Below, one piece after another: positions 30,730-31,437 of a stretch of 64,000 bases of DNA. The stretch is from Zanthoxylum bungeanum (taxonomy: Eukaryota; Streptophyta; Magnoliopsida; Sapindales; Rutaceae): the NCBI GenBank assembly GCA_019454045.1, contig SKCR01006516.1, forward strand, positions 744,001-808,000, read 5' to 3'. A program made the position numbers and the translations under genes. The notes under the pieces were generated by a model. It made no database searches, was not told the DNA's origin, and saw nothing but the letters and a program-made list of their open reading frames with translations. Within the stretch, counting starts at the first letter, position 1. Each line of letters opens with the position of its first letter.

Positions 30730-31437
30730 ATTCAGCCCGTCATTGCACTTTTGAAGGCATCCGAGTTGAGAAAGAAATACATAAAATGGAAGCCACTTCA
30801 AGAAGACGAGTTGAAAACATCTGTGTGTTTTGCGGCAGGTAGTATTGGTACTAAGCCACAATACGTAGAGGCAGCACAGGAGTTGGGTCGAGTCTTAGCA
30901 GCAAGGAATATGAACTTAATATATGGCGGAGGCAATCTCGGACTAATGGGGATTGTTTCAAAGGCCGTACAGGAAGGAGGCAGTCACGTTTTGGGAATCA
31001 TCCCAAAACCCTTGGCAGAGGCAAATCTTATTGGATCATCAAACGGAGAGGATCTGATCGGTGCCAGGTATGTCTGAACGACTGGTAGAAATGATTAACC
31101 GTGCTGATGCTTTTATCGCTTTGCCAGGTGGCTTGGGTACATTGGAGGAAATTTTTATAGTTCTATCTTGGGCGAACCTGAACATACATCAGAAACCGCT
31201 TGGACTGCTCAACGTTGATGGATTTTATTTTCTTTGTGTGTTTCTTGATGATGCTCGGAGAAATGGGTTCGTGTCAAAACTTTGAAAGAACTCCTCTTCA
31301 CTGCCAGAACTGCTCCGGATCTAATAGACCAACTCATAGCCTATGAACCACAAGTTGACCCTATCCTTTCAAAGATAAATTGGTCCGAGGACGATCGTGG
31401 TAAGAGGCGTCGAATTAATCTGGATCTTAACCTTTAA
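30730..31437 (+). pseudogene. LOG-like: Captured LOG-like cytokinin riboside monophosphate phosphoribohydrolase
   Basis: The frame encodes most of a Rossmann-fold LOG protein (TIGR00730 / old lysine decarboxylase-like family). Plant LOG enzymes release active cytokinin bases from riboside monophosphates in the cytosol. Visible: the N-terminal strand TSVCFAAGS; NLIYGGGNLGLMG near 30914-30952, matching the family's YGGGxxGLMG; VLGIIPKPL; the MSERLVEM segment holding the conserved Arg; and DAFIALPGGLGTLEE near 31107-31150, the signature PGGxGTxxE. About 235 residues including an N-terminal extension, near normal family length. Broken by a one-base insertion near 31055 and a one-base deletion near 31280 relative to the other copy. 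No in-frame ATG precedes the domain. No introns, whereas plant LOG genes have several, which suggests capture from mRNA. Confidence 0.85.

Follow-up and report, generated by a model that had tools for sequence, protein, structure and literature searches.

A LOG-family gene with an altered nucleotide pocket and an LxLxL tail in non-autonomous LTR retrotransposons of Zanthoxylum bungeanum

Results

Two LOG-bearing elements in the window

The window analysed here, 64,000 nucleotides of the Zanthoxylum bungeanum genome (contig SKCR01006516.1, positions 744,001 to 808,000), carries two long terminal repeat (LTR) retrotransposons, element A on the forward strand and element B on the reverse strand, each with a gene of the LOG family of cytokinin-activating phosphoribohydrolases. 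Both have an LTR pair, a short target-site duplication, a primer-binding site and a polypurine tract, and both share one internal order: gag/protease pieces, a piece resembling the tail of an integrase, an open reading frame (ORF) labelled ORF1, LOG, the polypurine tract and the 3′ LTR. The features are as follows.

24880–34913, forward strand: element A, an LTR element delimited by its LTR pair and a GGGTT duplication.
24875–24879 and 34914–34918, no strand: target-site duplication GGGTT of element A, read from the sequence at the LTR ends TGATGAG...GGTCA.
24880–27045, forward strand: 5′ LTR of element A, which blastn aligns with the 3′ LTR at 97.9% identity.
27295–29291, forward strand: gag and aspartic protease region of element A, split over several frames, with the motif ALCDIGASVNLMP read directly.
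29311–29859, forward strand: integrase C-terminal-like tail of element A, immediately 3′ of the protease, placed by its likeness, judged by eye, to the end of the integrase ORF of contig L029 (see below).
29977–30525, forward strand: ORF1 of element A, a zinc-finger protein of 182 amino acids of the carlavirus nucleic-acid-binding type, from matches to Viral_NABP and Carla_C4.
30786–31437, forward strand: LOG gene of element A, here spread over three frames, from PF18306 and PF03641 matches of its pieces and from open full-length relatives (P0122, L030–L049).
31399–31434, forward strand: C-terminal basic patch and LxLxL tail of the element A LOG (GKRRRINLDLNL), read from the translation.
32751–34913, forward strand: 3′ LTR of element A, located by blastn, with the polypurine-like AGGTTTGGGGGTG, read from the sequence, just before it.
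42850–52907, reverse strand: element B, with LTRs at about 42850–45009 and 50700–52907.
47166–47755, reverse strand: ORF1 region of element B, divided between frames (Carla_C4, 23.8 bits, for 47441–47755; continuation in another frame at 47166–47375).
46312–46962, reverse strand: the element B copy of LOG, which has a single internal stop and lacks about 60 nucleotides near its start (PF03641, 109 bits, for 46312–46770).

The two LTRs of element A differ by 34 substitutions over 2153 aligned sites (K = 0.016). Element B is flanked by the duplication ACCCG (42845–42849 and 52908–52912) and has an LTR K of 0.0131; the internal parts of the two elements are 88.6–89.2% alike. The protease piece of element A at 28791–29291 has PF13650 as its top Pfam match, at 19.9 bits and thus under the cut-off of 24.3, the element B piece corresponding to the element A gag matches Retrotrans_gag at 47.6 bits, and the integrase-tail-like piece has no Pfam match. 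Neither the open pieces of at least 30 amino acids of element A nor the Pfam matches of the scanned pieces include a reverse transcriptase, an RNase H or an integrase core. With its protease followed almost directly by the integrase-tail-like piece, element A, which is of Ty3/gypsy type, is non-autonomous. The elements probably belong to a LOG-bearing, pol-less LTR family of Athila type, given a primer site, TGGCGCCG...CCGGGG, and an extra 3′ ORF that we take to fit Athila. The abstract of Steinbauerova et al. 2011 reportedly describes two Athila-like elements similar to LOGL4.

The LOG gene and its ancestry

The LOG domain that the initial annotation saw inside an LTR element with a GGGTT duplication is real, with pieces of the element A gene matching PF18306 at 42.3 bits (cut-off 26.3) and PF03641 at 81.0 bits (cut-off 27). 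The gene it drew across 30730–31437 does contain this domain but is not one ORF. The start common to full-length relatives is the ATG at 30786, the frame of which ends after 18 codons; coding then continues in the frames 30730–31074, 31058–31282 and 31252–31434, three frame changes in all, and positions 30730–30785, together with the out-of-frame stretch that follows, lie outside the conserved protein. LOG is interrupted in both window copies. Two element layouts place it after the last ORF and before the 3′ LTR, and many copies have an open frame of 217 codons. The full-length relative P0122 is a member of the LOG family (type I), with 115 bits for PF03641 and 160.9 bits for TIGR00730; the NCBIfam equivalog model NF058542 (threshold 300) does not discriminate, as both P0122 (104.8) and the Arabidopsis-type LOG P0241 (132.4) fall short of it.

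We compared element-type with ordinary plant LOGs in a tree of 51 proteins, sampling 27 of 120 listed element-type and 20 of 120 listed ordinary sequences. A branch with support 97/98 has all 27 element-type LOGs on one side and, on the other, the 20 ordinary plant LOGs with Arabidopsis LOG3 and LOG8; two bacterial LOGs fall outside. The relatives of the element LOG thus appear as a single clade next to ordinary plant LOGs, the pattern that one old capture would leave, which agrees with the family assignment first made for the locus. Among the 120 listed, element-type LOGs occur in named records of Populus, Xanthoceras, Reevesia and Diplodiscus; the LTR-element context was observed here for the window genome, and for poplar it is reported by PMC9289625. 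Four predicted Xanthoceras proteins of 290–381 amino acids (P0128, P0133, P0134 and P0155) carry element-type LOG sequence, P0128 with two LOG-like stretches in one protein.

The PGGxGTxEE motif is present in 100 of the 120 listed element-type LOGs. An AlphaFold2 model of the poplar form P0161 has the LOG fold (predicted local distance difference test, pLDDT, 84.5; predicted template modelling score, pTM, 0.82), and its closest Protein Data Bank (PDB) entry is Arabidopsis 2a33 (E 3e-23). Residues 203–217, which form the tail, are disordered in the model (pLDDT < 50). P0161 is 47–50% identical to four ordinary LOGs.

Copies, layouts and purifying selection

Further LOG-bearing copies are abundant, in line with the initial idea of an element-borne gene. 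The window genome was searched over 3.96 Gb in 51,709 contigs, with 150 of 70,292 first-look candidates scored, so that all counts are lower bounds. Every scored place matched (150/150), both with the element A LOG piece and with P0122 as query, and with P0122 the match covered residues 1–217 at 148 places and fell one residue short at two (by eye). At least 122 of these 150 places are free of internal stops and 28 have stops (by eye). The element A query is partly out of frame at its start, and its top matches are biased towards copies with a similar frame change and not towards intact ones. Two samples were used: 22 copies, namely the two window elements and 20 of the 21 rows ranked next below the window itself among the 150 listed (one near a contig start was omitted), and 20 open copies from the 150 P0122 rows, all taken from the 122 stop-free ones, with broken copies excluded by choice. 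Nineteen of the open copies start with ATG and one, L034, with ATA.

LTR sequence flanks LOG on both sides in 18 of the 20 regions from the first sample and on one side in two: L018 ends with its contig, and in L028 a second 3′ region replaces the downstream LTR. In L028, two LOG elements seem to have one LTR in common, as from LTR–LTR recombination. The element A layout is found in 11 of the 20 regions (in L018 partly, because of the contig end). In the other nine (L011, L015, L017, L019–L022, L024 and L025), a different frame, ORFx, replaces gag, protease, integrase tail and ORF1, and LOG is the same. In the seven of these nine copies for which it was listed, ORFx reaches up to 432 amino acids, begins MEHYWEIERL, is acidic and has one possible zinc knuckle; its L020 form has no Pfam match at E 0.01. 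Five open copies for which flanks were taken all have the same 3′ region and LTR start, preceded by ORF1 in one and ORFx in four. LOG is kept in elements stripped of nearly all else, as the ORFx-layout copies without gag, protease, integrase tail and ORF1 still carry it. The two layouts are intermixed in a tree of LOG DNA, in which several supports are low, and because the tree does not separate them the layouts may exchange the LOG segment.

Selection was measured as the ratio of nonsynonymous to synonymous substitution (dN/dS) by the Nei–Gojobori method, pooled over pairs, with a bootstrap over codons. In the 22 copies LOG has a dN/dS of 0.217, against 0.71 and 2.74 in the shifted frames, and residues 114–229, which played no part in ranking the copies, give 0.196 (bootstrap 0.122–0.313). 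The 20 open copies give 0.178 (0.124–0.250; shifted frames 0.80 and 2.25), a value lowered somewhat by the choice of open copies. For the other genes the ratios are 0.144 for protease and 0.350 for gag-protease (12 copies each), and 0.345 for ORF1 and 0.361 for the integrase tail (13 copies each). Pairwise values blend the selection that preceded insertion and the drift that followed, so the true dN/dS of active lineages is probably lower. The LOG protein is under purifying selection.

These data bear on two readings in which the protein would not matter. LOG could be a passive passenger, acquired by chance and carried through each round of copying. The broken state of both window copies would fit, as would that of the first 20 copies retrieved, although the frame-shifted query had selected that set. 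The frame-specific dN/dS of 0.18–0.22, the stop-free state of 122 of the 150 scored copies and the retention of LOG in elements that lack gag, protease and the integrase tail all speak against such a passenger, and we reject this reading as very improbable. Alternatively, the stretch could be kept as RNA, as a packaging, splicing or dimerisation signal. The non-coding stretches around it are conserved too, acceptor-like CAG sites among them: a CAG precedes LOG in 21 of the 22 copies and ORF1 in each of the 13 ORF1-bearing copies, the other nine having TAG at that place (by eye). In the window, such sites lie at about 29960 and 30625. Yet the low dN/dS is confined to the coding frame, and the pocket and tail residues described below show a protein pattern, so an RNA signal in place of a protein is hardly credible. 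The CAG sites would also fit expression of LOG and ORF1 from spliced RNAs.

A replaced nucleotide pocket and a gained tail

Pocket residues are numbered after CgLOG. According to the accessible part of PMC4979012, Arg99 and Glu122 of CgLOG carry out catalysis, Met96, Lys100 and Glu121 bind adenine, and Met96, His97, Lys100, Glu125 and Trp129 form the prenyl site; alanine at the crucial residues nearly abolished activity, except for S19A, with the AMP-site residues, Lys100 included, listed as a group. For comparison we used 120 ordinary plant LOGs, the best matches to LOG3, and the 120 listed element-type LOGs. All eight residues (M96, H97, R99, K100, E121, E122, E125 and W129) are present in 120/120 ordinary LOGs. 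Among the 100 element-type LOGs that end in LxLxL or a near form, the catalytic residues are mostly retained (Arg99 in 92, Glu122 in 97), as are Met96 (95) and Trp129 (98). Lys100 is replaced in 99, Glu125 in 99 and His97 in 89 of them, and all three in 89. The 20 open host copies, read by eye, have Ser97 (20/20), Leu100 (20/20) and Ile125 (19/20; Thr125 in one), and Arg99 and Glu122 in every case.

The same proteins have gained a C-terminal tail. A basic patch followed by strict LxLxL ends 92 of the 120 element-type LOGs, or 100 when near forms are counted, and all 20 open host copies; strict LxLxL is found in 0/120 ordinary plant LOGs. This tail resembles the motifs that recruit TOPLESS, that is, ethylene-responsive element binding factor-associated amphiphilic repression (EAR) motifs, and is a putative motif of this kind.

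Of the 20 element-type LOGs without LxLxL or a near form, several are truncated and nine retain His97, Lys100 and Glu125; two with the ancestral pocket and no LxLxL, P0154 and the Xanthoceras-type P0225, branch outside the other 25 element-type LOGs in the tree. P0180, alone among the tailed LOGs in keeping Lys100 and Glu125, combines a full ancestral pocket with a strict LxLxL tail and is possibly an intermediate, or an exception. With nine relatives that show the ancestral pocket without LxLxL, and P0180 showing both that pocket and the tail, the sequences suggest that the tail arose before the pocket changed.

The simplest role for such a protein would be that of a cytokinin-activating phosphoribohydrolase still, with a tolerant pocket, releasing free cytokinin locally and so helping element-bearing cells to divide or stay meristematic. 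The LOG fold, the PGGxGTxEE motif, the catalytic pair, the purifying selection and the Arabidopsis LOGs as closest PDB relatives are all in keeping with this, and MmLOG shows that prenyl-site residues vary among LOGs, departing from CgLOG at the positions of His97, Glu125 and Trp129 (accessible part of PMC4979012). Against it stand the loss of Lys100 and of Glu125, each in 99 of 100 derived proteins and in none of the ordinary LOGs, the near loss of CgLOG activity on alanine changes in an AMP-site list that includes Lys100, and a tail that such a role does not require. Cytokinin activation by the element LOG is doubtful, since cytokinin-site residues are replaced in nearly all derived proteins, these proteins end in LxLxL or a near form, and many of the elements also encode ORF1; we consider this role possible but on the whole unlikely. 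Of the captured hormone-activation gene first proposed for the locus, the capture of a plant-type LOG stands; the activation is weakened, with adenine and prenyl residues replaced though the catalytic pair mostly stays.

A pocket-altered subunit could also act by poisoning, lowering host cytokinin activation through mixed dimers with the host LOG. In the CgLOG dimer, the neighbouring subunit supplies Glu125 and Trp129 of the prenyl site (accessible part of PMC4979012), and Glu125 is one of the positions changed in the element LOG, which preserves the fold. The poplar form is, however, merely 47–50% identical to the four ordinary LOGs compared with it, which makes mixed dimers uncertain, and poisoning leaves the tail and the retained catalytic pair unexplained. 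We regard it as distinctly improbable.

ORF1, a carlavirus-type zinc-finger protein

ORF1, which the initial annotation does not mention, matches Viral_NABP at 29.6 bits (cut-off 23) and Carla_C4 at 28.6 bits (cut-off 20.9), and among its aligned family members matches at E 0.01 or better are found in 20/20 for Carla_C4 and 19/20 for Viral_NABP. It has 330 homologues, with PF01623 in the 120 listed of them (by eye), and its four finger cysteines are kept in 96–98% of these 120 homologues plus ORF1 itself. In the element A copy, the stretch leading up to roughly the final 12 residues departs from the family and looks frame-shifted. The AlphaFold2 model is poor (pLDDT 53.1, pTM 0.28). As in the cysteine-rich proteins of carlaviruses, allexiviruses and mandariviruses (Carla_C4, Viral_NABP), a basic stretch is followed by a Cys finger; unlike them, ORF1 has the finger C-x2-C-x4-C-x3-C, is 182 amino acids long and is encoded by an LTR element. 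These viral relatives include suppressors of RNA silencing, and for chrysanthemum virus B p12 a further role is described, that of a transcription factor causing hyperplasia (accessible part of PMC12172455); suppression is reported for viral members and would be a possible role of ORF1.

Homologues occur in records of Populus, Xanthoceras, Acer, Rhamnella and Orobanche, with no relatives found in a scan of viral contigs. A scan of genome contigs returned a single contig with ORF1, L029, in which ORF1 is preceded by an integrase with rve and H2C2 domains; there Viral_NABP passes (34.1) and Carla_C4 narrowly fails (20.4). L029 is filed as a Candidatus Nomurabacteria assembly, and its content looks like plant retroelement DNA. 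No LOG was seen in L029 between ORF1 and the ACATTGAGGACAATG stretch. Because L029 has an integrase and ORF1 without LOG, LOG looks like an addition in some lineages, and ORF1 also adjoins a full integrase. There is a hint that ORF1 and LOG occur together in other genomes too, as P0025 and P0186 are each recorded on a JGI contig of length 4511 and are linked by this equal length.

Discussion

A proposed retargeting of LOG

We tentatively prefer a reading, to which we give somewhat under an even chance, in which the element LOG is retargeted away from its original role and effector-like. The basic patch would take the protein to the nucleus, where the LxLxL tail would bind TOPLESS-type corepressors, and the altered pocket would bind or cleave a nucleotide other than cytokinin riboside monophosphate. 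The protein would then work like a small effector, altering host transcription in the cells that express the element. In ORF1-bearing elements its partner may be the carlavirus-type zinc-finger protein, which would counter RNA silencing.

The TOPLESS route gains plausibility from EAR effectors described in an oomycete and a smut fungus: HaRxL21 and Jsi1 are foreign proteins that present an EAR motif within plant cells, as proposed here. They differ in being pathogen proteins with a reported TOPLESS interaction, whereas the element LOG has the motif only (accessible parts of PMC7446885 and PMC8126959).

Several points weigh against retargeting. As the catalytic Arg and Glu are mostly intact, hydrolysis may remain, that of cytokinin precursors included, and the case of MmLOG shows that pocket variation does not by itself mean lost function. 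The ordinary set is mostly LOG1, LOG3 and LOG4 where named, with LOG5/LOG7-type tails outside the comparison, and one of its 120 members has a near-form tail. The association of tail with pocket (Fisher p 1.5e-7 in 105 of the 120 proteins, the 15 without a clear motif excluded) counts kin sequences, has one exception (P0180) and may reflect one or few events. LxLxL alone is a weak predictor of TOPLESS binding; in the accessible part of PMC7446885, none of ten other LxLxL-containing downy mildew candidates that were tested bound TOPLESS.

A stronger version, possible but rather doubtful, is a two-part effector kit, in which LOG, rebuilt as a nuclear, TOPLESS-recruiting, nucleotide-binding protein, would be paired with a virus-type zinc-finger silencing suppressor, and elements without replication genes would keep the LOG part. 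Such elements do keep it, so on this version an element could profit from reprogramming its host cell as well as from copying itself.

Relation to known systems

The initial annotation took a retrotransposon family with a LOG gene to be undescribed; this does not hold, as a LOG/YgdH domain is already reported in Gypsy elements of Citrus sinensis and C. clementina, and in Populus trichocarpa too without the five-consensus filter (PMC9289625, section 12, which cites Steinbauerova et al. 2011). These likewise have a LOG-family domain inside plant Ty3/gypsy elements, and probably descend from the same capture as the window family because P0161, a poplar protein taken by itself without its genomic context, falls in the element-type clade. 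Section 12 of that paper is silent on an altered pocket, an LxLxL tail, selection on LOG and a carlavirus-type ORF. Neither a retrotransposon with a carlavirus-type protein nor an element LOG with an EAR tail or a replaced pocket is described in the literature searched, most subscription papers lying outside it. That LOG occurs in a retrotransposon is known; the interesting part is the reshaped pocket with its LxLxL tail and the virus-type partner ORF.

With plant LOG3 and LOG8 (PDB 2a33 and 1ydh) the element LOG shares the fold, PGGxGTxEE and the catalytic Arg and Glu; the derived form differs in lacking Lys100 and Glu125, and mostly His97, and in having the C-terminal basic and LxLxL tail. 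AlkB Gypsy elements of Phalaenopsis likewise carry a captured enzyme domain, with activity shown in vitro; the enzyme is another one, and the accessible part of PMC9289625 mentions no retargeting tail.

The family bears on the role of extra ORFs in plant LTR elements, one of which is here under strong purifying selection and predicts, from its sequence, a changed cytokinin specificity and a gained TOPLESS binding. If the preferred reading is true, a transposon manipulates host transcription in the manner of pathogen effectors. The relative of silencing suppressors in the same elements ties RNA viruses to plant retrotransposons and bears on escape from silencing.

Other features of the window

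Between the two LOG elements lies a host gene of the BASIC PENTACYSTEINE type (39601–40533, reverse strand), open over 311 amino acids and matching PF06217 GAGA_bind at 369 bits over profile positions 14–284 of 284. Remnants of a hAT-like transposon (36424–38333, reverse strand) give matches slightly below cut-off to an RNase-H-like domain (26.9 bits; cut-off 27) and a BED finger (20.5; cut-off 20.6). A broken Copia-type polyprotein (60047–62743, forward strand) has gag_pre-integrs and SH3_retrovirus matches, and its piece 62264–62743 has no Pfam match. Members of one related repeat family, about 72–97% alike and in several orientations, lie at 23093–24872, 34919–35597, 52907–54503, 56804–58102 and 63020–64000, and both LOG elements sit within or beside this recurring family.
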